The notes beneath the pieces are model-generated. The model was given only the letters and a program-made list of their open reading frames with translations. It was not told the origin of the DNA and searched no databases. Position numbers and translations under genes: made by a program. From contig JAGGUP010000181.1 of assembly GCA_021158405.1 (NCBI GenBank), forward strand, positions 1-43,137: a stretch of 43,137 nucleotides of DNA. Reading direction: 5' to 3'. This document shows positions 13,541 through 31,671 of this stretch, one piece after another. Source of the DNA: Bacteroidales bacterium (GTDB lineage: Bacteria; Bacteroidota; Bacteroidia; Bacteroidales; UBA12170). Every line of letters begins with the position of its first letter. The stretch's first letter is position 1.

Positions 13541-14827
13541 ATGAGTACAGCCGCTTATAATGCATTTCATAGTGCACAAAAACAATTTGACCAAGCAGCA
13601 GAAATTCTGGAGCTCGATCAAGCCACTCGTGATTTATTAAGAACGCCTATGAGGGAGTTTCATTTCAACATTCCGATTCGTATGGACAATGGGAACATGC
13701 AGATATTTAAAGGTTTTCGAGTACAACATAACGATGCACGAGGACCTTCAAAAGGAGGCGTTCGTTTTCATCCGCAGGAAACCATCGATCTTGTTAGAGC
13801 TTTGGCAATGTGGGTAAGTTGGAAAACTGCAGTCGTGGATATTCCATTAGGCGGAAGTAAAGGTGGAATTGTTTGCGATCCGCACAACCTAAGTCTTTTT
13901 GAACAAGAACGTTTATGTCGTGGATGGGTAAGGCAAATCGTGAAGAATATTGGACCTCATCTTGATGTGCCTGCTCCTGATATTATGACCAACTCTCAAC
14001 ATATGCTCTGGATGCTTGATGAATATGAAGTTTTGACTGGAACCAAAGCCCCAGGATTTATTACGGGAAAACCAATAAGTATGGGCGGTAGTTTAGGGCG
14101 AAAAGAAGCTACCGGATATGGGATTATCATCACTTTGCGTGAAGCTTTAAAAGAATTAAATAGGGATGCTTCCGAAACAACGGCCAGTATTCAGGGCTTT
14201 GGTAATGTAGGACAACATGCCTTTGAATTGTATTCTCAAATTGGGGGTAAAGTATTGAGTGTTGCAAGTTGGAGCCAACAAGACCAATGCAGTTATACTT
14301 TTTATAAAAAAGACGGAATAGATTATTCTGAATTGAAAAGCATTACGGATCGCTTTGGAGGCATTGATAAAGAGAAGGCTTTGGCATTGAATTATAAAGT
14401 TTTACCTGGGGATGATTGGATCGCACAGGAAGTTGATATCCTTATTCCTGCAGCTATTGAAAATCAAATTAGCATGGATAATGTAGCACGCATTCATCCT
14501 AAAGTAAAAATTATTGCTGAAGGAGCAAATGGACCAACCACTCCCGAAGCTGGGGAGGTTCTTGATGCTAAAGGCCTATTTACAATTCCTGATTTTTTAG
14601 CTGGTTCGGGAGGTGTTACGTGTAGTTATTTTGAACAAGTTCAGAGCAATATGAATTATTATTGGACGAAAGACGAAGTATTAAGCAAGCTGGATCTTAA
14701 AATGACTACAGCCTATGTTTCTGTGAGCGATTTCGCTTTAAAATACAAAGTGCCCATGCGGCAAGCGGCCTATCTGATTGCAGTCGATCGCGTAGCGCAG
14801 GCATCTAAAGACAGAGGTTGGGTATAA
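13541..14827 (+). CDS. Glu/Leu/Phe/Val dehydrogenase (glutamate dehydrogenase, NAD(P)-dependent)
   Basis: GPSKGGVRFHP, DIPLGGSKGGI, VPAPDIMTNSQHMLWMLDEYE, QGFGNVGQHA, EGANGPTTPEA, GVTCSYFEQVQ. Confidence 0.94.
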   Translation: MSTAAYNAFHSAQKQFDQAAEILELDQATRDLLRTPMREFHFNIPIRMDNGNMQIFKGFRVQHNDARGPSKGGVRFHPQETIDLVRALAMWVSWKTAVVDIPLGGSKGGIVCDPHNLSLFEQERLCRGWVRQIVKNIGPHLDVPAPDIMTNSQHMLWMLDEYEVLTGTKAPGFITGKPISMGGSLGRKEATGYGIIITLREALKELNRDASETTASIQGFGNVGQHAFELYSQIGGKVLSVASWSQQDQCSYTFYKKDGIDYSELKSITDRFGGIDKEKALALNYKVLPGDDWIAQEVDILIPAAIENQISMDNVARIHPKVKIIAEGANGPTTPEAGEVLDAKGLFTIPDFLAGSGGVTCSYFEQVQSNMNYYWTKDEVLSKLDLKMTTAYVSVSDFALKYKVPMRQAAYLIAVDRVAQASKDRGWV

Positions 14828-14846
14828 TATAAAATCCGTAAATAAT

Positions 14847-16592
14847 ATGGATAAAATCGAAAATACAATTGCACGTTTCAACCGAAACTTTTATCATCCC
14901 GAAAATAAGATTACGTATATCGGAAATGGTTCTTTTGGAGGAAAAGCACATGGTTTACTTCGTATCCATTCCATGTTGAAAGAGAAATTTCAAACAAAAA
15001 AACATCCTGAATTTGAGGTTGGAGTTCCAGTACTCACTGTTCTTCGTACAGATGTTTTTGATGCTTTTATGAAGCAAAACAATCTATACTCCCTTGCTTA
15101 TTCCAATGTATCAGATGATAAAATTGCTCATGCATTTCAAAAAGCAGAACTGCCTTTTGGTATTTTAGGAGACCTAAGAGCACTTATTGAAGATGTGCAT
15201 AATCCACTTGCTATAAGATCTTCCAGTCTTTTGGAAGATGCCATGCATGAGCCCTTTGCCGGTGTTTATGGCACTAAAATGACACCTAATAATCAACTTG
15301 ATGCCGATAGTCGGTTCCGAAAATTAGTGGAAGCAATAAAATTTGTTTTTGCCTCCACATTTTTCAACGCAGCGAAAGATTATATGCGAGCTTGCTCTCA
15401 TAAAACAGAAGATGAAAAAATGGCAGTCATCATTCAAGAAGTGGTAGGAAAGCGTCAAGACAATTTGTATTATCCCGATATTTCAGGAGTTGGCCGATCC
15501 TATAATTATTATGCTTTTGGAAATGCCAATCCTAAAGAGGGTATAGTTAATCTAGCTCTTGGTTTGGGGAAAACAATTGTCGATGGTGGATTATCCTGGT
15601 CTTATTCACCAGCCTTACCCAAACTGGATCCTCCCTTTGGTTCTATCAACGAGATGATGAAAAATACTCAAACGCGTTTTTGGACAGTAAATATGGGTGC
15701 TCCATCGGCGTATAATCCGATTAAGGAAACCGAATATTTATTAGAAAACGATTTAACAATTGCCGATAAAGGAAAAAATTTAAAATATGCTGCTTCCACT
15801 TTGGATGTAAGCTCCGGACGAATCGTTATGGGTATTGGCAAAAAAGGCCCTAGAATTTTAAACTTTGCATCCATCTTACGTTTAGACGAACCTCCTCTCA
15901 ATGATCTTTTAACAAATTTGATGCGGCTCACCGAAGAAAATTACTCCGCTCCGGTTGAAATAGAATTTGCATTGAGTTTTTCTGATACGGGTATTCATCA
16001 GTTTGGTTTTCTGCAGGCACGGCCAATGAATGTTTCTTTTGAGGAAGTAGAAATTGGAGATGAAGCATTTTACAGTAATGAGGCACTCGTTTCTTCTGAA
16101 CGTGTTTTAGGAAATGGCATAGATGAAACAATATGCGATATCATTTACATAAAACCGGAATCATTTGATACGATGAAAACTCAGGAAATCGCTATCGAAC
16201 TAGAAAAAATAAATAAAGAGCTCCTTAAACAAAAACGAAAATACTTAATGATAGGTTTTGGTAGATGGGGAACTTCCGATGCTTCCGCTGGTATTCCAGT
16301 CAATTGGGGACAAATTTCCGGAGCTAAGGCTATTGTTGAAGCTAGTCTGGATAATATTAACTTTGAGCAAAGTCAAGGTTCGCATTTTTTTCACAATGTG
16401 AGCGGATTTCAAGTGCTTTATTTTTCGGTAGAGAAGATCAACTATAAACAAATCAACTGGGAATGGTTAACCCATCAAAAAAGCTTAAAGGAGACTCTTT
16501 ATCTGCGCCACCTTCGTTTGAATCATCCGCTAAAAATTGAAGTAGACGGCAAATGTGGCCGAGGAATTATTTTTAAACCACAAAGCAAATGA
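14847..16592 (+). CDS. PEP/pyruvate-binding (PPDK_N-like) domain protein without recognisable swivel/TIM-barrel domains (paralog A)
   Basis: GNGSFGGKAHGL, AIRSSSLLEDAMHEPFAGVYGT, VIIQEVVG, FLQARPM, then GFGRWGTSDASAGIPVNWGQISGAKAIVE…QGSHFFHN; 19 nt after GDH. Confidence 0.85.
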   Translation: MDKIENTIARFNRNFYHPENKITYIGNGSFGGKAHGLLRIHSMLKEKFQTKKHPEFEVGVPVLTVLRTDVFDAFMKQNNLYSLAYSNVSDDKIAHAFQKAELPFGILGDLRALIEDVHNPLAIRSSSLLEDAMHEPFAGVYGTKMTPNNQLDADSRFRKLVEAIKFVFASTFFNAAKDYMRACSHKTEDEKMAVIIQEVVGKRQDNLYYPDISGVGRSYNYYAFGNANPKEGIVNLALGLGKTIVDGGLSWSYSPALPKLDPPFGSINEMMKNTQTRFWTVNMGAPSAYNPIKETEYLLENDLTIADKGKNLKYAASTLDVSSGRIVMGIGKKGPRILNFASILRLDEPPLNDLLTNLMRLTEENYSAPVEIEFALSFSDTGIHQFGFLQARPMNVSFEEVEIGDEAFYSNEALVSSERVLGNGIDETICDIIYIKPESFDTMKTQEIAIELEKINKELLKQKRKYLMIGFGRWGTSDASAGIPVNWGQISGAKAIVEASLDNINFEQSQGSHFFHNVSGFQVLYFSVEKINYKQINWEWLTHQKSLKETLYLRHLRLNHPLKIEVDGKCGRGIIFKPQSK

Positions 16593-19500
16593 CAGAAAAC
16601 AAACCTCTAAATCAGATGATTGGCGAACTTCAAGAGCGTGCCAAAGAATTAAACTGCCTGTATAAAATTCAGGAAATTTTGAACGAGCACAATATAAGCA
16701 TTGAACAAGCCGCTTATGATTTACTCAAAGCCATTCCTCCCGGTTGGCAATATCCTGATATTTGCAAAGTTGAAATCAGCATTGCTCAAGGAACTTTTAA
16801 ATCTTTTGGTTTTGAAGAGTCCAAATGGACGCTAACAGCTGATATTCAAGCACAGGAGAGATCGTTTGGTCAAATAAAAGTGATGTACAATGAGATTAGA
16901 TCCAAGGCTTATCAAGGTCCGTTTCTGAAAGAAGAATTAAAACTGATTAAGAGTATTGCCGAAAGCCTTGGACTATTTTTACTTCATTTGGAGCTTAAAA
17001 AGGTATTTGAAAAAAATTCCAAAAGTGAAAAAGTAGATAATAATAGTGACTGGAAAATCATTTTAGATATGCTCAGTCATACCGATCCAAAATTATTGAT
17101 TCGTATTTCGCGAAAAATGATCAATACACTTTGCTGGACCAATGTGAGTGGAGCTGAGAATTTACTCGAAGGATTCAGTCCTTCCTTTAAAGGTAAAAAT
17201 GAAATGAATAAAGAAAGCAATGCTCCTTTTGAACGCGTTGCCGACAATGATTTAATTGCCTTAAGTTATGAGATTTTTGATTTAGCTTCCAATAATATCG
17301 ATCGTGAGGATATTTTAAACCATATCAATAAATGGATAACTGAAGACCGCTCCGTATTTTTAACAGAAAAACTCGAAAACATGGGTTCTTCTTTAGAGGA
17401 TATTAGCAATGCTGTAGAACGTTTTTATCATTTAGGAACAACGACTTCCTTACTTTCGATTCAGCGCGATAAAAGCTTACGTATTGCTCTGATTACTCGT
17501 CTGTTAACCGATCATACGGATTATATTGAAGTAGCGAAAAATCATCTGAATATAGATCATTTCAATACATTAATTCAACGAATAATTTATCCACTAAACA
17601 GTCATGGTAAAATTGGAGGAAAGAGTGCTGGTTTGTTTTTAGCTCAACAAATTTTGAAGCAAGAAAATGAACTGAACCCCCTTTTTAAAGATATCAAAAT
17701 TCCTAAAACTTGGTATATCGCCTCCGATGGATTGCTCAACTTTATGAGTTATAATAGCTTAGAAGATATGCTGGAGCAAAAATACAAGGAGATTGGATTG
17801 GTGCGACAAGAATATCCTTATGTTATTCACGTATTTAAGAGTTCTTCTTTTTCGCCGGAAATATTAAAGGGCTTAAGTCTTGCCTTAGACGATTTTGGTG
17901 AAGGGCCTCTTATTGTACGTAGTTCCAGCTTATTAGAGGATCGAGTTGGGACTGCTTTTGCAGGAAAATACAAAAGCTTATTTATCCCAAATCAAGGCAA
18001 TAAAAAAAAACGAATGGCTGCTTTAACAGACGCCATAGCTGAAGTCTACGCTTCCATTTTTGGCCCTGATCCTATCGAATATAGATTACAAAATAAACTA
18101 CTCGATTATCATGAAGAAATGGGAATAATGATACAAGAAGTGGTAGGAAATCAAGTAGGCCCCTATTTCTTCCCAGCCTTTGCAGGCGTTGGATTTAGTC
18201 AAAATAATTACCCTTGGTCAAGCCGAATTCAACAGAGTGATGGTTTACTTCGATTAGTTCCCGGACTTGGGACACGCGCTGTTGACAGAACCAGCAATGA
18301 TTATCCTGTAATGATTGCTCCAGGCCAACCTAATTTAAGGGTGAATTCTTCACCCGATGAAATTATACGTTATTCACCCAAATACATCGATGTTGTCAAT
18401 ATAGAAAAAGGGGAATTTGAAACTATAGAAATAGACACTTTATTGAAAAAATATGGCGATATCTACCCAACCATTAGCAAGCTAATTTCTAGTATCGAAA
18501 TGGATCGTATTCTTCCGGCAAAGGCATTTGGTAACAATTTTCTAAAAAATGAATATGTATTTTCATTCGATGGCTTAATTAATAAAACGAAATTTATTAA
18601 TCAAATGAAAGCCATATTAAATACTTTAGAAGCTAAATACAAATTACCTGTAGATATTGAATTTGCACACGATGGAAATCACCTCTATTTGTTACAAAGT
18701 CGAGCTCAAAGCAAATATCTGTATTCGAAACCCGTACCCATTCCAGGAGATATATCAGCTGAAAAAAGTGTTTTTTCGGCTAATAAATACATCTCTAACT
18801 GTCTCCTCCAAAATCTCACCCATATTGTATATGTAGATCCAAATGAGTATGCTCAGCTTCCCGATTATCAGAGCATGATTAATGTCGGAAAAGCAGTCGG
18901 CCGTTTGAATCAATTACTCCCCAGAAGACAATTTATTTTAATGGGACCTGGGCGTTGGGGAAGTCGGGGAGATATTAAATTAGGCGTTAGCGTAAGTTAT
19001 TCCGACATTAACAATACCAGTATGTTGATTGAAATTGCCAGAAAACATCGCGATAGCAATCCCGAATATACAGCTGACCTTTCTTTTGGCACACATTTTT
19101 TCCAAGATCTTATGGAAGCCAATATCCGGTATTTACCTTTATATCCTGATGAGAGTCCATGTATTTTCAATGAAACTTTACTTACACAAACAGAAAGTGT
19201 TTTTGCTGATTTGCTCCCCGAATATACAGCACTTTGCAATGTAATTAAGGTAATTGATATACCGGCTACTTTTGAAAACAATGTATTGAATATAGCTATG
19301 AATGCGAAACAAGGGAAAGCGCTGGCTTATATTGGTGGTACGAATGATGAAACGCTTTCTTTTATTGAAAAAGAGCAGGCCGCAAAATTGCAAAACGATA
19401 CAGAAATACATTGGCAATGGCGTTTGCTAAATGCAGAACGCATTGCGGCTTTACTAGATCCAAAACGCTTTGGTGTTAAAGCAATATACCTTTTTGGAAG

Positions 19501-19780
19501 TGTAAAAAACGCAAGTGCTAAAGCCGATAGCGATATTAATCTGCTCATTCACTTTTTAGGAAATAAAACTCAAAGGGGAGAATTAATGGCTTGGTTAGAA
19601 GGATGGAGTCAGAGTTTGGCCCAGATTAACTTTTCACGAACGGGACATAAAAGTAAAGGCTTATTAGATGTTCATATAATTTGTGACGAAGACATTAAAA
19701 ACAAAACTGTTTTTGCTCGTAAAATTAATGCAGTTACGGATGCTGCCCGACCACTACCTTTGGGAACACAATTAAAATAG
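16589..19780 (+). CDS. Sensor (GAF-like) + PEP/pyruvate-binding (PPDK_N-like) + C-terminal nucleotidyltransferase fusion protein (paralog B)
   Basis: ATG overlaps TGA of previous gene; N-term ELNCLYKIQEIL…IPPGWQYPDICKVEI…GPFLKEELKLIKSIAESLGLFL; KIGGKSAGLFLAQ, IVRSSSLLEDRVGTAFAGKYKS, GPGRWGSRGDIKLGV…FGTHFFQ; C-term YLFGSVKNASAKADSDINLLI (GSx8DxD NTase motif). Confidence 0.83.
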   Translation: MTENKPLNQMIGELQERAKELNCLYKIQEILNEHNISIEQAAYDLLKAIPPGWQYPDICKVEISIAQGTFKSFGFEESKWTLTADIQAQERSFGQIKVMYNEIRSKAYQGPFLKEELKLIKSIAESLGLFLLHLELKKVFEKNSKSEKVDNNSDWKIILDMLSHTDPKLLIRISRKMINTLCWTNVSGAENLLEGFSPSFKGKNEMNKESNAPFERVADNDLIALSYEIFDLASNNIDREDILNHINKWITEDRSVFLTEKLENMGSSLEDISNAVERFYHLGTTTSLLSIQRDKSLRIALITRLLTDHTDYIEVAKNHLNIDHFNTLIQRIIYPLNSHGKIGGKSAGLFLAQQILKQENELNPLFKDIKIPKTWYIASDGLLNFMSYNSLEDMLEQKYKEIGLVRQEYPYVIHVFKSSSFSPEILKGLSLALDDFGEGPLIVRSSSLLEDRVGTAFAGKYKSLFIPNQGNKKKRMAALTDAIAEVYASIFGPDPIEYRLQNKLLDYHEEMGIMIQEVVGNQVGPYFFPAFAGVGFSQNNYPWSSRIQQSDGLLRLVPGLGTRAVDRTSNDYPVMIAPGQPNLRVNSSPDEIIRYSPKYIDVVNIEKGEFETIEIDTLLKKYGDIYPTISKLISSIEMDRILPAKAFGNNFLKNEYVFSFDGLINKTKFINQMKAILNTLEAKYKLPVDIEFAHDGNHLYLLQSRAQSKYLYSKPVPIPGDISAEKSVFSANKYISNCLLQNLTHIVYVDPNEYAQLPDYQSMINVGKAVGRLNQLLPRRQFILMGPGRWGSRGDIKLGVSVSYSDINNTSMLIEIARKHRDSNPEYTADLSFGTHFFQDLMEANIRYLPLYPDESPCIFNETLLTQTESVFADLLPEYTALCNVIKVIDIPATFENNVLNIAMNAKQGKALAYIGGTNDETLSFIEKEQAAKLQNDTEIHWQWRLLNAERIAALLDPKRFGVKAIYLFGSVKNASAKADSDINLLIHFLGNKTQRGELMAWLEGWSQSLAQINFSRTGHKSKGLLDVHIICDEDIKNKTVFARKINAVTDAARPLPLGTQLK

Positions 19781-19900
19781 TATCGTTCTGTTTTACCGAC
19801 ACTTAAATATTTTTTATACAAAACTGAGAGAAACGGAAGGTTTATCTTCAACACTTAGTCCTTCTCTCCAACTGAGACAAGTTTACTTCGTCAATAAGAT

Positions 19901-20626
19901 TTATGCCAATACAATTTCCAATACTTCGTGAGAACATAGCGGCTTAAATTCAGGTGAGTGAAGCTGAAAATAATTTAAAATATGTCCGAGCATTGTTTTT
20001 CTCATTTGTTTCGAGATCGTAGTTTGTTTAAAATATTCAAAGCTTAATGCAGAAGCGTTGTAAAAAAACAAACTTTCTTCTTCATTTAATTTATAAATCC
20101 CAAGACGCTGATCGGCATGAAACTTTCCGTCAGCTAAATCGAATAATGCTCCTGTAGTATAACTTCCGTTTGCCGGACCAAATCCTAAATGTTTGCTCAA
20201 CTGCACAGCAAAATGCAAATGAAAGCTCGAAAATTGATCTTCCGATAAATCGAGTAATTGAATGGCATTAAAAAGATAATGAAATAGCGGCGCATTTGCT
20301 TCCTCTTCGCGAATTGAATTATAAATCAATTCATTTAAAAATAGGGCTATTGAGCTTTTTCGAATATCATAAGGCAAGGTCTTAAAGATATATGCTTTTT
20401 TGAGCTCTTTAATATACTGCAAATCTTTATTCTCCCGATTATACACTTCCATATCGAGTAGAGATAGAAGCTGAAGATTATTGGCTTTTGTTTTTGCTTT
20501 TGTTTTTCTAACTCCTTGAATAAGATAGGATTTCAGACCAAAATACTCCGTATAAATTTTAGCTACAACACTGGTTTCGCTGTAGTTAATCGTTTTCAAA
20601 ACTATCCCTTGAGTTTTAGCAAGCAT
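19901..20626 (-). CDS. recO: DNA repair protein RecO
   Basis: N-term KTQGIVLKTINYSETSVVAKIYTEYFGLKSYLIQGVRKTKAK OB-fold region typical of RecO. Confidence 0.88.
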   Translation of the reverse strand: MLAKTQGIVLKTINYSETSVVAKIYTEYFGLKSYLIQGVRKTKAKTKANNLQLLSLLDMEVYNRENKDLQYIKELKKAYIFKTLPYDIRKSSIALFLNELIYNSIREEEANAPLFHYLFNAIQLLDLSEDQFSSFHLHFAVQLSKHLGFGPANGSYTTGALFDLADGKFHADQRLGIYKLNEEESLFFYNASALSFEYFKQTTISKQMRKTMLGHILNYFQLHSPEFKPLCSHEVLEIVLA

Positions 20627-20805
20627 GGTTCCAAAGATAGAAAATAGATTGGTAAAGATTTGGTTTCAAAAATCATTATTAGATTTAATTGATACGCTCC
20701 GAAACAAGTTGATAAAACCTTCACATTCCCTAACTTCCCCTCGATATCAGTTCTTTCAAATGATTCTTATTCCAAAAGCACAGCCTCCTTGAATAAAAAC
20801 ACGAA

Positions 20806-20841
20806 AACCCCGATAGGTCTATTAAGAACCCAATCGAGGTT
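20806..20841 (-). terminator. Imperfect hairpin terminator downstream of rpmF
   Basis: AACCCCGAT / ATCGAGGTT (one mismatch) with T-rich minus-strand tail. Confidence 0.4.
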
Positions 20842-20864
20842 GTATCTTTATGAATACGGAAAAA

Positions 20865-21050
20865 CTACTCTGGCTTAGGAACGATTATTTTTCCTTTGTA
20901 ATATAAATCGCCTTCCACATAATAAGCTCTGTGATATATATGAGCTTCACCGGTAGTAGGGCAAATAGCTATTTGATTAGCTGTAGCTTTGTAGTGAGTC
21001 CTTCTTTTGTCTCTTCTTGTTTTCGAAATTTTTCGCTTTGGATGTGCCAT
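20865..21050 (-). CDS. rpmF: 50S ribosomal protein L32
   Basis: [22 protein letters not shown]…[25 protein letters not shown]. Confidence 0.96.
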
Positions 21051-21059
21051 TATTTCTAT

Positions 21060-21581
21060 TTATTTAGATTTTAATTTTTTAAGTGCTTCCCACCGAGGAT
21101 CCACATCATCTTCTGGTTCTGTTAAGTCTTCAAATTCTCCCAAAATATCAACCGGACAAACAGGATTCCCATCTTCATCTTCTGGATGTGTTAATCGCAT
21201 CGGTAATGCAAGATTCACATATTCATAAATGAGCTGAGCCAATTTAATCTCATACGTTGAGCTGGGTAAGAAAATAATATTAGCACTATCCTCCTCTTCA
21301 TAATCGCTAAATTTTACTAGCAGATTTTCTGAAAAATCAAGCGGAAAATCAAAGTCCTCACCACAACTATCGCAGATTACATTAACGCTACCTTTAAAAA
21401 AGAAATCGAGTTTTAGCATGTTTTCCGCCTTATTCAATATCACTTTTAAAGCAATTTTGCCTTTTTGTGTTCTGGAATATTCAAAAGCTTCAAAGAACGA
21501 ATCAGTAATTTGAAAATCAAATTCATGATCCCCAATCTTTAAACCTCGAAAGGAAATAACATAATCTTTTAAATTACCCAT
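21060..21581 (-). CDS. DUF177 / YceD family protein
   Basis: Immediately upstream of rpmF; CDSCGEDFDFPLDF, LPMRLTHPEDEDGNPVCPVD; start chosen at MGNLKDYVISFRGLKIGDHEF. Confidence 0.85.
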   Translation of the reverse strand: MGNLKDYVISFRGLKIGDHEFDFQITDSFFEAFEYSRTQKGKIALKVILNKAENMLKLDFFFKGSVNVICDSCGEDFDFPLDFSENLLVKFSDYEEEDSANIIFLPSSTYEIKLAQLIYEYVNLALPMRLTHPEDEDGNPVCPVDILGEFEDLTEPEDDVDPRWEALKKLKSK

Positions 21582-21872
21582 TGCTTTTCGTTTAAAAATT
21601 CGGGCTGCAAAAATAAATATTAATATTTTGAATAACAAGGATTTTCTTTTGTAAAATGAGTGAAAAAAATTGGCTAAAAAATTAATTCGTTTTTCCTCAT
21701 TACAACTACTTTTCAAGATACTCCTAGCTCTATTTTTATTTTTAACGAACTTTAAGACCAAATGACTCTACATTTTAAAATTTCTGTTTTTATTCCACGT
21801 ATTAATTACTATTTTTGTGATTCAATAGTTAATGAACTATTTAATGATTTTCAAAATTCAAAATTTAGATAT

Positions 21873-22115
21873 ATGAGAATTACATTCAACGAACTCAGAA
21901 AAGTCAAAGACAGCTTGCCTAATGGAGCAATGCATAAAATTGCAGAAGAGTTAAACCTTTCGGTTGAAACAGTGAGAAATTATTTTGGGGGATCGAACTA
22001 CGAACAAGGTGATACCGTTGGCTTTCATACCGAACAAGGGCCTGATGGCGGAATCGTTGAAATTGACGATGCAACTATTTTTGATAAAGCATTGTCTATT
22101 TTAGAAGAAGTTTAA
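21873..22115 (+). CDS. Small HTH DNA-binding protein
   Basis: KIAEELNLSVETVRNYFGG helix-turn-helix; start chosen at MRITFNELRKVKDSLP. Confidence 0.65.
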   Translation: MRITFNELRKVKDSLPNGAMHKIAEELNLSVETVRNYFGGSNYEQGDTVGFHTEQGPDGGIVEIDDATIFDKALSILEEV

Positions 22116-22139
22116 CTCGTGATAAATTAGATTAGTATA

Positions 22140-22170
22140 GTCGGCCATTTTTCAATAGCCGACTTTTTTT
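22140..22170 (+). terminator. Rho-independent terminator after small HTH gene
   Basis: GTCGGC…GCCGAC stem followed by TTTTTTT. Confidence 0.65.
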
Positions 22171-23161
22171 ATTTCAGTACAAATTCCATCCAAACCGGAA
22201 AATGATCTGAAGCTTCGCCAGCTTCCTGAACAACTTTTGCATCCAGCTTTTCGATAAACTTCTTATTATAAAAGATATAATCTATTTTCTCAACAGGATC
22301 TCCGGAACTAAAAGTATAATTCCGTTTTGGATCAGTCAAAAACACACTATCTGTAATGGCTACACCCACTCCAGAAACGTCAAACATCTTTCGAACTGAT
22401 TCATCTATTGGTCCTTTCGCACCTATCGCCCGACTATTAAAATCGCCAATAAGTAAAACGGGTAATTTGTCAGCATATTTCAAATACTCTTCAATAACGG
22501 CTTCCGCATGCATAATACGCGTTTCCTGATCAAAAGCTTCTAAATGCACATTCATAACAAGTAAATCGCCTTTATTGGTTTTTAGCCAGGTTTTCTGAAT
22601 CAACCTATCCAAATAAAATGCATTATAATAAAAAGGCGCATTTACAGGCTTAGGAAGTGTTACATATTCGTTTTTCAAAATCACTAAATCACTCATCACA
22701 TATTGTCCTGAAATTAATTTTCCAAAATGATATTGAAAAGGCCAATAAGGAAAAGGCACGTATTTTTTATCCCAATTAACCGCCAAGCTTCCATTCAAAT
22801 ATCCTAAATGAAAACCTAAACTATCCGGTTGATTGTATAAAAAAGATCGCTTAGCAGCAATATCAATCTCTTGAAAACCAATAATATCTGAATGATACTT
22901 GTTTAAAACAACTAGCGCATCTTTTAAATTTTTAGCATATAAAGCTTCGTCTCTGGCGACAGGTAAATTGTTTGTCATTCCCGATAACCAACCAATATTG
23001 TAAGTCATTACACTTAGCGTATCAGAAGTGTTGGAAGGTTTATCAGCAAAATACTGAATTTGATTGTATTTTTCTGCGTCCCAATTGTTGGAACTGCCCC
23101 AAAAATAAAAAGCAATAAATGCCAGAACTAAAGCAAGAAGAAAATAAAGAAGCTTTTTCAT
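22169..23161 (-). CDS. Endonuclease/exonuclease/phosphatase family protein
   Basis: VMTYNIGWL, DIIGFQEID, VMNVHLEAF, LLIGDFNSRA, KIDYIFY, ASDHFPVWMEF; N-terminal TM. Confidence 0.88.
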   Translation of the reverse strand: MKKLLYFLLALVLAFIAFYFWGSSNNWDAEKYNQIQYFADKPSNTSDTLSVMTYNIGWLSGMTNNLPVARDEALYAKNLKDALVVLNKYHSDIIGFQEIDIAAKRSFLYNQPDSLGFHLGYLNGSLAVNWDKKYVPFPYWPFQYHFGKLISGQYVMSDLVILKNEYVTLPKPVNAPFYYNAFYLDRLIQKTWLKTNKGDLLVMNVHLEAFDQETRIMHAEAVIEEYLKYADKLPVLLIGDFNSRAIGAKGPIDESVRKMFDVSGVGVAITDSVFLTDPKRNYTFSSGDPVEKIDYIFYNKKFIEKLDAKVVQEAGEASDHFPVWMEFVLK

Positions 23162-23235
23162 CTGTTTATAATTTGAATTGTTTTTCAAATTTATGAAAAA
23201 TTGCAGACATATTCTCTTTTTGTCTTAGAAAGAAA

Positions 23236-23260
23236 AAAAGGAGCCTGCGAGGCTCCTTTT
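23236..23260 (-). terminator. Rho-independent terminator of gdhA
   Basis: AAAAGGAGCC-tgcga-GGCTCCTTTT perfect stem, U-tract on the minus strand. Confidence 0.85.
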
Positions 23261-23285
23261 GTATCAAAAAATAGATCGGCTTTAT

Positions 23286-24656
<1,371 letters not shown>

Positions 24657-26800: not shown

Positions 26801-27271
26801 CTATCCCCACTTACTAAAAGGATTTAACACCAGATTCGCATTATAAAAACGGGAATCACCACTCACTTCTTTGCCTAACCATGAGGGTTTTGTAAACACT
26901 TCTGCTTCTGATGATAATTCTATTTCAGCCAAAATAAGGCCTTCGTTTTTACCAGAAAATACATCGACTTCAAACACATGTTTTTCAATAGGAATTCGGT
27001 ATCTTATTTTTTCAATCGGACTACCAACGACTAATTTCATAAGTTCCAGAGCTTCCTTTTGATCAATTTCTTTTTCCCATTCAAAACGTGACAGTCCACT
27101 GGCATTGCTTTTTCCTTTAATCGTTATAAAAGCCTTTTCATTTTGGATACGAATACGTACTACTCTCTCTTTATCCAGAGATAAATAGCCTTGAGTAATT
27201 AACAGACTTTCTTCTGCCTGACTAATAAAATCCCCCTTAACAAAAAATTTACGTTCTATTTCCGGTGCCAT
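26801..27271 (-). CDS. CYTH domain protein
   Basis: N-terminal EIERKFFV, QGYLS, VRIRIQNEKAFITIKGK, WEKEI, KIRYRI, FEVDVFSG…LILAEIEL. Confidence 0.9.
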   Translation of the reverse strand: MAPEIERKFFVKGDFISQAEESLLITQGYLSLDKERVVRIRIQNEKAFITIKGKSNASGLSRFEWEKEIDQKEALELMKLVVGSPIEKIRYRIPIEKHVFEVDVFSGKNEGLILAEIELSSEAEVFTKPSWLGKEVSGDSRFYNANLVLNPFSKWG

Positions 27272-27445: not shown

Positions 27446-30400
27446 TTACTCCCAATCGATAATAGCAATCCTTTTTTTACCATCCATTTTTACGCAGAGC
27501 GGTTTTTTAAACCGCAAATGTTTAAAATAAGTGGTTTGCTCAAAGGGATCAATCTGTTCTAACTTTTCCCAATTTATTTTACCCGTTCCTTCGCTGGCCT
27601 GGACAGAAAAATAACCCACATCGGCAGCCGTCACATTATGGAAAAAATGTGAACCAGAGCTTGCATCTAAAGGAAAAGAATCTAAACTCGTTTCGACAAT
27701 AATCTTGGCCATGGAAATTTGAGGCCAAGAAACCGGAATTCCAATCCATGGATCGCGTGTTCCCCACCTACCCGGACCAATCAAAATATATTTTCGATTT
27801 TCTTCGCGCATTTTTTTATTTAAATAACTTATTTCTTTTACCATCTCATTGGTCTTGCTCTTATCGAAATTTTGAATATCAGCATAAATAAGATCAAAAA
27901 TATCCTCAACCTTACCATTTCCCATTCCATGTTCCGTGTAAAGCAATAAAGATTCTTTATCAATATTCTGCATATCAATACTATAATCTTCCGGATTCCC
28001 AATAAGCGGTTTTATTTGGAGAATATAGAGTTTACTTTTACCATCTATATCTTGGTCTAGATTTACAGCAAACTCAATTTCAACAGGCGCTCCTATTGCC
28101 TCTTTTACAACATCCAAAACCAATTCAAGGGAATGTGCTAAAGGAATATAATTGTGTTTTAAAACATTCGCAAAATTCAAAATTTTTGGTCCTTTGTGAT
28201 GATTTCCTGAATACAATTGATCATTGTTGGCATCATAAACAGAAGCGCAATGTTTTAGGGTCCCGTGCTTTTCGGCTTCCATAATATCCAATCTAATTAA
28301 ACCGGCATCTTCCCCTTCAAGAAGGTTTAATTTTTCATTGTTTAATTCAACGGCATAAAAATGAACTTGTGAATTTTTTACCAAAGATTTTGTTGTGAAA
28401 TTTTCAAGGGTGGGATATTTAGGTGAAAATCGGTATGATTTTTCTCCTTCCACAACATATTTCCCCAAGCCTAAAGCAATATTAGCAAAACCTTCTTCTG
28501 GTTTCATATGTCCAATAGGATAATAATTATGCGATTGTGCAACTCCACTAATATGTGGATAAAATACATTATCATATTGATTACCAACTGTTTCTTGGAT
28601 AATAATAGCCATTTTCTCCTCTTCAATTTTATAATTAATGGCCTCTACATATGCAATTGAAATATCGGAATAAATAGAAGCATACACCAATTTAATAGCT
28701 TCACACAATTGTTGTAAACGAACCTTGTTATCTGCGTGGTGATTAGGCAAAATATAGGTGTCAAAGATTCCAGCAAAAGGTTGCGATAAACTATCTTCGA
28801 GCAATCCGGAGGAGCGAATTGCCAGAGGCTTATCTGTTAGCTCAATTACGCGATGTAATTTTACCATTAAATTGTCGCTCAATGAACCGTTAATAAAAAG
28901 AGACTTGATCTGAAAGTTGGAAGTTGTGACTTTCATTTTCTCGTGAAGCTGATTTTTTTCCATAAATTGATCGTATTCTTCTGTACCAATTATTAAAGTA
29001 GAAGGAATACGAATATGGATATCGGGCAGAATTTTTGTAAAATCGAAATTGTATAATAGGCTGTTAAAAAATGCCAATCCCCTTCCTTTACCTCCTAACA
29101 TACCATCGGCCAAAATCACAATATTGGAAGAATCGAGTATTTCATCATCTTCTTCAAAAGGTATCAGTTTTCCTTTTTTCTGCTCGTTTCTAAATTTAGA
29201 AATAGTAGATATCAAGTAATTACGTAAGCTTTTTCCGTCTTTAAAATCTGCAACTTTAGCCGGATTAAGAATGCGAGCAACTTGAATTTCGCCCCTTGCT
29301 TTCAACCAAAGTGAGAAATGGTTTTCGCTGGCATGATAGATGAGCGACTCATCAGGGATTAGCAATAGTTGCTCCTGAAACTCTTTGAGCGTATGCGCCA
29401 CGGCAATCTGATTCCCATCTTTATCTTTATAAAAGAAATTACCAAAACCCAAATATTTCATGATAAACTGCTTAAAATCCTGAAATAAACTGTTCGAATT
29501 TTTATCAATAAAAGAAGTCTTTAAGGCAATGGCCTGCATTTTATTGTTAATATCGGACGATTGAATGATAATGGGTAAATCTTTTACCTCTTTACGGACG
29601 TGATTAACAAGATTAAAACCTGCTTCATTATTTAATTTGCCATTTTTATAAAACTTTACATCAGTGATTAGGCATAAAAAAAACTCTTTGTATTTTGCGA
29701 AAATCGCTATGGCCTCTTCGTACGACTGAGTCAGGATGATTTTGGCGCGAGCTCGAAGTCTTAAAACCTTGTATAACTCATCTGTAGCAACATCGTCAAT
29801 TATTCGTCGGGTTTGATCCATAACAATATTGTATAGCATTGGCAAATAAAGAGAATAATATTTGGGGTTATCTTCGACTACTAAAATTACACGAACAAGA
29901 CCTTTATTGGTATCGTTATCGAGGTTAATCTTATCTTCAAGATGCTTTATCATTGTAAAAAACACAGACGATTTTCCATTCCAGATAAACACTTTATTTA
30001 TGTGCTCATGTTTTCTCGTGCTATATTCTGCAATATCTCTATTATTGTTTAACAATAAAAATATGGGCAAGTATGGATAGACTTCCTTTATGCGCTTACT
30101 ATAATTATCAGGCATTTGCCTATCTATACCCTTCATTATAATTACTAAATCATAATGTTTTATGCTGAGTGTATCCATAGCTTCTTCAAGTGAAGAAACA
30201 CCAGCAATTCGAGGCACAGAAGTTAAATGAAGCTGATAATATTTACCCAACACTTGTTCCGAAAAGCGCCCTTCTTCTTCTATACTGTATGCGTCATACA
30301 AGTTGGCAATAAGTAAAATTTCCTTTACTTTAAAAGGCATTAAATCATGATAAATATCCCGAGCATAATTACTTCGGTTTAGATACCGCTGAAGTAGTTG

Positions 30401-30892
30401 TTTATTCGCTATACTTTGGTCGGGGAAATAAACCGCAGCAGGTACAGTAACATAATCTCCTTTTATTTCGTTTTTAGAACGGGCTTCAATACTATTGAAA
30501 TAGCCTTCTAATCGCAAAACAACTTTTTCCAAAAGTAAATCTTCACTCCTTAAAAATGGCCCAAACTCCGACTCTTCAAAGTTTTCAATATATTGAACAT
30601 CTATAAAACCAATTCTGCCTTGCAAAGTCCTAAAACGTTTTTTTAAGTGACTTTTAGCACCATTAGGTGTGCCAGAATAAAAATCTTTACCATCAAAATG
30701 GATATGGACGGCCGTAAAAGCGGAGTATTGAAAATAAACAGGTAAAATAGTAGCCATTTGCTCCAGGAGTTGATTTGCCGATTTTCGCTCCTTTAATAAA
30801 GAAGTAATCTTATTTAAACATGCCAAAACTTGCAAGTCTTCATTAGGCGTAATCTCGTTTTGTATATCTCGAAAATCATCCGGTTTATCCAT
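27446..30892 (-). CDS. Sensor (GAF-like) + two receiver-like domains + PEP/pyruvate-binding (PPDK_N-like) protein (paralog C)
   Basis: N-term …FIDVQYIENFEESEFGPFLRSEDLLLEKVV; receiver-like VILVVEDNPKYYSLY…CLITDVKFY…SFIDKNS; ADGMLGGKGRGLAFFN, AIRSSGLLEDSLSQPFAGIFDT, IIQETVGNQYDNVFYP, GPGRWGTRDPWIGIPVSWPQISMAKIIVE…SGSHFFHN. Confidence 0.85.
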   Translation of the reverse strand: MDKPDDFRDIQNEITPNEDLQVLACLNKITSLLKERKSANQLLEQMATILPVYFQYSAFTAVHIHFDGKDFYSGTPNGAKSHLKKRFRTLQGRIGFIDVQYIENFEESEFGPFLRSEDLLLEKVVLRLEGYFNSIEARSKNEIKGDYVTVPAAVYFPDQSIANKQLLQRYLNRSNYARDIYHDLMPFKVKEILLIANLYDAYSIEEEGRFSEQVLGKYYQLHLTSVPRIAGVSSLEEAMDTLSIKHYDLVIIMKGIDRQMPDNYSKRIKEVYPYLPIFLLLNNNRDIAEYSTRKHEHINKVFIWNGKSSVFFTMIKHLEDKINLDNDTNKGLVRVILVVEDNPKYYSLYLPMLYNIVMDQTRRIIDDVATDELYKVLRLRARAKIILTQSYEEAIAIFAKYKEFFLCLITDVKFYKNGKLNNEAGFNLVNHVRKEVKDLPIIIQSSDINNKMQAIALKTSFIDKNSNSLFQDFKQFIMKYLGFGNFFYKDKDGNQIAVAHTLKEFQEQLLLIPDESLIYHASENHFSLWLKARGEIQVARILNPAKVADFKDGKSLRNYLISTISKFRNEQKKGKLIPFEEDDEILDSSNIVILADGMLGGKGRGLAFFNSLLYNFDFTKILPDIHIRIPSTLIIGTEEYDQFMEKNQLHEKMKVTTSNFQIKSLFINGSLSDNLMVKLHRVIELTDKPLAIRSSGLLEDSLSQPFAGIFDTYILPNHHADNKVRLQQLCEAIKLVYASIYSDISIAYVEAINYKIEEEKMAIIIQETVGNQYDNVFYPHISGVAQSHNYYPIGHMKPEEGFANIALGLGKYVVEGEKSYRFSPKYPTLENFTTKSLVKNSQVHFYAVELNNEKLNLLEGEDAGLIRLDIMEAEKHGTLKHCASVYDANNDQLYSGNHHKGPKILNFANVLKHNYIPLAHSLELVLDVVKEAIGAPVEIEFAVNLDQDIDGKSKLYILQIKPLIGNPEDYSIDMQNIDKESLLLYTEHGMGNGKVEDIFDLIYADIQNFDKSKTNEMVKEISYLNKKMREENRKYILIGPGRWGTRDPWIGIPVSWPQISMAKIIVETSLDSFPLDASSGSHFFHNVTAADVGYFSVQASEGTGKINWEKLEQIDPFEQTTYFKHLRFKKPLCVKMDGKKRIAIIDWE

Positions 30893-31014: not shown

Positions 31015-31671
31015 GTGATAAGCCTTTTAATTAAAGACGACTCCCCAATAATTTCGGAAAGCATAAAAGCCCTGCTAGTTTCTGCCAAAGATATTGTTGT
31101 AGAAACAACTTTACCAACGCTTCCAAATTTCGATTCGAATGGCAAGCTTATCCAGCCAAATATTATTTTGTTTGTAGCCCATTTTGGAAATTCAGAAGAA
31201 ACGCTCAATATTAAACGTTTTAATCGCAATTTTGAACGTGCTAAAATATTAGTTTTATGTCTTTCTATAAATGAATCCTTTATTTTACAAGCAATTAAAG
31301 CAGGTGCAAAAGGCCTTTTAACAAAAGATACAACTGCCAACGAATTAATAGAAGCCATTTACACTTTACGCAGTGGCTACGATTATTTTGGAAAATCCAT
31401 CACACAGGTTCTACTCAACTCTTACTTAAAAAAGGCCGATCAGAGTGAAAATGAGGCATTTAATAAACAATTAAAAGCGCTTTCGGAAAGAGAAATGGAT
31501 GTCCTGAAACTTTTTGCAGAAAGTTATACCAATCAGGAAATTGCCAATAAATTATTTATTAGCATTCGTACAGTTGAAAGCCATAAGAATAACATTATGC
31601 GAAAAATTAATCTTCGTACAACCGTTGATTTAGTAAAATTCGCCATCCTAAATAATTTAATTCAGATTTAA
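31015..31671 (+). CDS. LuxR/NarL-type response regulator with atypical receiver (GTG start)
   Basis: C-term LSEREMDVLKLFAESYTNQEIANKLFISIRTVESHKNNIMRKINLRTTVDLVKFA; N-term receiver layout with KDD, GAKGLLTKD. Confidence 0.85.
   Translation: MISLLIKDDSPIISESIKALLVSAKDIVVETTLPTLPNFDSNGKLIQPNIILFVAHFGNSEETLNIKRFNRNFERAKILVLCLSINESFILQAIKAGAKGLLTKDTTANELIEAIYTLRSGYDYFGKSITQVLLNSYLKKADQSENEAFNKQLKALSEREMDVLKLFAESYTNQEIANKLFISIRTVESHKNNIMRKINLRTTVDLVKFAILNNLIQI

Follow-up and report, generated by a model that had tools for sequence, protein, structure and literature searches.

A tandem-receiver PPDK_N ATP-grasp protein of a Bacteroidales bacterium belongs to a widespread family often encoded near glutamate dehydrogenase

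The nitrogen regulators GlnD and GlnE illustrate how an enzyme of nitrogen assimilation can be controlled covalently. For the architecture considered here, the closest described systems are fusions of receiver (REC) domains with PPDK, recorded in 2018 in a passage that calls them "Bacteroides-like" (PMC5847659), and the receivers lacking the aspartate (ALR), for which a passage of a 2015 study reports a strong association with PPDK effector domains, a link that it connects to plant C4 metabolism (PMC4395418). Since REC-PPDK and Asp-less receiver-PPDK combinations are reported in these passages, the architecture of the protein described below, P0001, is already on record. The combination is named in one sentence of PMC5847659, and the passage around it contains no mechanism, pseudoreceiver, GRWG domain or link to glutamate dehydrogenase (GDH), the comparison being one of descriptions. 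No functional study of a REC-PPDK_N fusion was found, despite the wide spread of these fusions in Bacteroidota and their presence in several other phyla.

P0001 (1148 aa) is encoded on the minus strand at positions 27446 to 30892 of the window, which is the whole analysed stretch of 43,137 nucleotides from a Bacteroidales bacterium (contig JAGGUP010000181.1). The protein is composed successively of a sensor-like segment, a pseudoreceiver (REC1), a receiver (REC2), a PPDK_N domain of the ATP-grasp type and, at the C-terminus, a GRWG domain. An earlier note on this DNA had proposed an open reading frame with sensor-like, two receiver-like, PPDK_N and GRWG parts, and the present analysis confirms it. 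The model of the whole chain, obtained with an alignment of 36 relatives, has a mean pLDDT of 81. A linker domain (residues 485-590; 29123-29440, minus strand) matches DUF5752 only weakly (E 0.006, under the cut-off). A CYTH-domain protein is encoded between P0001 and aspS (26801-27271, minus strand).

The N-terminal module (residues 18-140; 30473-30841, minus strand) is modelled as two helices followed by four strands and a helix. It matched no GAF family, and indeed no Pfam or NCBIfam entry at all; the term "GAF-like" thus describes, in the model, a likeness of topology only. The module resembles the N-terminus of P0002, a protein encoded at 16589-19780 (28% identity over 104 aa, E 3e-6), and is absent from P0003 (14847-16592), so that the segment which the earlier note attributed to the operon at 13.5-19.8 kb is shared with one of these two proteins and missing from the other. 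In Bacteroidales-type loci, the long forms of the family carry the module once or repeated in tandem, with up to four copies, a number reached among the loci L035, L054, L076 and others. The same module also occurs in a multi-PAS protein of 732 aa, cut at the end of its locus (L039, minus strand 3-2198), which is perhaps a sensor kinase.

Concerning the receivers, two complete and successive (beta-alpha)5 units are observed in the AlphaFold2 model at residues 191-331 and 335-481. They correspond to REC1 (residues 190-331; 29900-30325, minus strand) and REC2 (residues 334-482; 29447-29893, minus strand). Pfam detects only a weak REC match, at residues 371-459 and under its cut-off. A Foldseek search of the PDB returned the REC-REC tandem of PleD as top match (E 6.6e-7), along with other receivers. 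Owing to the modelled units and the PleD match, both receivers are well supported as predicted folds, and the two receiver-like domains formerly proposed are thus predicted inside residues 185-500.

REC2 displays the (beta-alpha)5 fold together with the acidic pair, the phospho-Asp, the Ser/Thr and the Lys of a receiver. These residues are highly conserved among 130 relatives: Glu340 in 129, Asp341 in 118, Asp411 in 127, Ser445 in 128 and Lys464 in 127 of the sequences. Asp411 (29660-29662, minus strand) is the predicted phospho-acceptor, and the phosphorylatable pattern that the sequence had suggested for the second receiver is therefore present and conserved. In REC1, the phospho-acceptor position is occupied by Met253 (30134-30136, minus strand), as had been noticed previously. 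This methionine is found in 119 of the 130 relatives, none of those tallied having an aspartate, and the Lys site is occupied by Trp304 in 127 of them. With a REC fold and no Asp at the phosphorylation site, REC1 is an aspartate-less receiver, and the conservation of both residues indicates a pseudoreceiver throughout the family, as opposed to a local mutation. The 130 relatives were selected by similarity to P0001 and partly by C-terminal motifs, a choice that affects the invariance of the receivers less than that of the C-terminal motif.

The PPDK_N domain (residues 598-969; 27986-29101, minus strand) is recognized by Pfam (E 4e-40). Lys602, Arg693, Glu940 and Gln959 are invariant in the 130 relatives and Glu938 is conserved in 129 of them; in the QxR motif, the customary Arg is kept in 41 and replaced by Lys in 89. 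The domain is followed by a C-terminal domain with the motifs GPGRWG and GSHFFHN (residues 975-1146; 27455-27970, minus strand). Modelled with confidence (residues 965-1148: pLDDT 90, pTM 0.89), this domain has no Pfam match and, at E 0.001, neither the PDB, searched with Foldseek (best E 0.024), nor a viral structure library returned any structure. His1082 (27647-27649, minus strand) is a candidate catalytic or phospho-acceptor residue; it is conserved in 130/130 relatives, but this invariance is overstated because part of the search for distant relatives relied on a motif containing His1082. A reading of GSHFFHN as a diverged form of the phosphohistidine motif TSHAA was not supported: hhalign of the C-terminal domain gave a probability below 1% against swivel domains, near that of the reversed control. 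Foldseek detected no match to the phosphohistidine swivel either, a result with which a weak homology is still compatible.

Two domains of PEP synthases and pyruvate phosphate dikinases were not detected in P0001: for PEP-utilizers, the phosphohistidine swivel, Pfam gave nothing even at E values as high as 1, and PEP-utilizers_C, the PEP-binding domain, has no Pfam match. All three domains are present in a canonical PPDK encoded on another contig of the same genome (L127). As the phosphohistidine and PEP-binding domains are missing and the genome encodes its canonical PPDK separately, P0001 is not a PEP synthase. That it would be a paralog of these enzymes making PEP under two-component control is suggested by its PPDK_N domain and by the name that databases give to such proteins, but the missing domains contradict this, and the BLAST and tree results given below leave the idea with hardly any probability. 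In related genomes, the matches to canonical PPDK contain an in-frame stop in G013, G017, G023, G032, G039, G047 and G052, possibly because the alignment overruns the true end.

The absence of the canonical phosphohistidine and PEP domains, the invariant ligand-binding positions and the replacement of the QxR Arg by Lys in 89/130 relatives would also suit a catalytically idle energy sensor, in which ATP or AMP binding by PPDK_N shifts the shape of the protein and lets it bind a partner with no chemistry. We consider this quite improbable, as the acidic metal-binding positions Glu938 and Glu940 and the invariant His, Arg and Trp of the C-terminal domain look catalytic.

The window contains two further proteins with this core, both encoded on the plus strand. 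P0003 (581 aa; 14847-16592) possesses PPDK_N and the GRWG domain but no receivers. P0002 (1063 aa; 16589-19780) is composed of the sensor-like segment, PPDK_N, a GRWG-like domain and a Pol-beta type nucleotidyltransferase. In the latter (residues 960-1012, GS-x9-SDIN), the second catalytic Asp is replaced by Asn, as also in the ortholog of locus L037, which makes nucleotidyltransferase activity doubtful. The idea of a defence system was rejected: PADLOC gave no match for P0001 or P0003, and P0002 is matched solely in its nucleotidyltransferase part.

The PPDK_N and GRWG core of P0001 is 39% identical to that of P0003 (E 2e-123) and 26% identical to that of P0002 (E 4e-33), and it has no BLAST match to the canonical PPDK of the genome. 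The tree of the cores unites P0001 and P0003 in a single clade (99/99) that is distant from canonical PPDK; E. coli PpsA forms a long branch whose placement is unsure. The core is therefore common to P0001 and the operon proteins, closely for P0003 and weakly for P0002, and canonical PPDK is more distant from the cores than they are from each other, as the proposal of the earlier note required. The "third paralog" arising by local duplication did not survive the same tree. P0001 is placed among its own orthologs, which occur in other families, and P0003 in a clade (100/100) with REC-less proteins of another family, whereas P0002 falls outside the P0001/P0003 clade with weak support (85/60). 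A local duplication of the three genes is rejected by these placements, and P0001, P0002 and P0003 are old paralogs. In a distant family, P0002-type, P0003-type and REC-PPDK_N genes were observed side by side (G094:C7:139431-145623).

The family is ancient and widely distributed. A REC-PPDK_N match was detected in 56/60 related genomes, and the named matches come from Bacteroidota, Acidobacteriota, Spirochaetota, Cloacimonadota, Gemmatimonadota, Planctomycetota, Desulfobacterota, Asgard and other MAGs, labels that may reflect misbinning where they derive from single MAGs. The passage of PMC5847659 on REC-PPDK regulators places them in Bacteroidota and in some archaea, in agreement with the matches obtained here in Bacteroidales and Asgard. 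The common type is a short form devoid of the N-terminal module, and the long form is often found in tandem with the short one. The earlier note had suggested phosphorelay control of a PPDK_N module and had taken the fusion for an unusual one. The first part remains the natural reading and agrees with the predicted REC folds and the similarity of the cores; the second falls, since the fusion is no local oddity and was already catalogued.

Two GDH genes of different types lie in an 11-kb part of the window (13541-24635). The NADP-type GDH (23286-24635, minus strand) is located 2.8 kb from P0001, and the second GDH, of an archaeal/NAD-like type (13541-14827, plus strand), is the first gene of the P0003-P0002 operon. 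The earlier note was silent on these genes. GDH is found at 6 kb or less from the REC-PPDK_N gene in 19/55 related genomes, against a rough expectation of about 0.5, and 14 of the 19 are outside the window's own family. For canonical PPDK, used as a matched control, a nearby GDH was seen in 1/54 genomes (G044), the lists being compared by eye; the difference in closeness to GDH gives a Fisher p of 7.5e-6 with 53 controls, a statistic that ignores relatedness. In the set of 80 named loci, GDH ranks first among the neighbours (32/80, and 9/24 of the loci not labelled Bacteroidota). The same operon, with GDH followed by P0003 and P0002, is seen again in four genomes that belong to a different family of the phylum (L133, L136, L137 and L138). 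Two thirds of the related genomes, with fragmented assemblies, show no GDH near REC-PPDK_N, and no GDH was detected in G019 and G052, which both contain REC-PPDK_N. Concerning this gene context, no paper linking GDH to PPDK-type regulators, and no mention of REC-PPDK_N genes near GDH, was found in the open-access library searched, which omits most subscription journals.

The closeness to GDH could be an inherited synteny with no functional meaning, as gene order is common to close relatives and only about one third of genomes are concerned. However, orientation and distance differ (divergent, upstream, downstream or tandem), both GDH types are involved, the receiver-less paralogs are linked too and several phyla are represented, which makes this explanation very doubtful. 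The frequent closeness in many bacterial groups suggests that the P0001 family controls nitrogen and carbon metabolism. The neighbourhood itself is a shared context and not a mechanism.

The other neighbours include KorAB (2-oxoglutarate:ferredoxin oxidoreductase), adjoining in 11-12 of the 80 named loci, and, at a small number of loci, Nfn and NuoEFG-type genes. A NarL-type response regulator (31015-31671, plus strand) is the divergent neighbour of P0001, and the same family is found beside REC-PPDK_N in 12/80 loci. These enzyme neighbours, GDH included, raise a serious rival to a regulator, namely a metabolic enzyme in which PPDK_N-GRWG phosphorylates or ligates a small metabolite near glutamate or 2-oxoglutarate, the receivers merely tuning its activity. 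The ATP-grasp residues are conserved, and P0001 has weak and partial matches to rifampin phosphotransferase and the prodigiosin ligase PigC, PPDK_N relatives that act on small molecules. We nevertheless regard this rival as somewhat unlikely: receivers are present in nearly all forms except the P0003 and P0002 types, the one to four sensory modules in Bacteroidales are regulator-like, and no biosynthetic gene set accompanies them constantly.

We tentatively prefer, among these readings, that P0001 is a response-regulator enzyme, a phosphorelay-controlled ATP-grasp output at the glutamate/2-oxoglutarate node that would most likely regulate GDH. The N-terminal sensory module and a putative histidine kinase would feed P0001, and phosphorylation of Asp411 in REC2 would set the state of the PPDK_N ATP-grasp module. 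REC1, having no Asp, would not be phosphorylated at that site and may serve as a structural or protein-binding adaptor, like the second receiver of PleD. The PPDK_N module would act joined to the conserved GRWG domain, presumably with turnover of ATP, and the output might regulate GDH by ATP-dependent covalent modification or by ATP-gated binding, GDH as the target and the direction of control being putative. More specifically, the PPDK_N-GRWG proteins could form a class of ATP-grasp modifying enzymes covalently controlling GDH under two-component control, GRWG being in this case a novel fold with a catalytic or phospho-carrier function, a proposal that we hold to be unlikely. The GDH link suggests for the REC-PPDK_N fusion a concrete and testable role in nitrogen/carbon balance. 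If the regulator reading is true, a two-component pathway would have the control of a central metabolic enzyme as its output, and the C-terminal domain that all members share would be a fold with no solved counterpart.

Compared with the known systems, P0001 resembles the REC-PPDK response regulators, as described in the passage of PMC5847659, by its receivers located N-terminal to PPDK_N in a single chain. With the ALR-PPDK proteins, as presented in PMC4395418, it shares a REC fold devoid of the phospho-Asp, and it differs from that description by a specific conserved Met, a Trp at the Lys site and an intact next receiver. PleD (REC-pseudoREC-GGDEF) also has an active and a degenerate receiver in tandem ahead of an enzyme; in P0001 the order is reversed, the degenerate receiver coming first, and the output enzyme is another one. 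The PPDK_N ATP-grasp domain and its main conserved residues are common to P0001 and PEP synthase or pyruvate phosphate dikinase, in contrast to the swivel and PEP-binding domains. Finally, GlnD and GlnE offer a works-like analogy to the role proposed here. P0002 has a Pol-beta nucleotidyltransferase domain, whereas the PPDK_N module is not homologous to these regulators, and GDH would be targeted instead of PII or glutamine synthetase. If GDH is indeed modified, the system would be the GDH counterpart of the control of glutamine synthetase by GlnD/GlnE.
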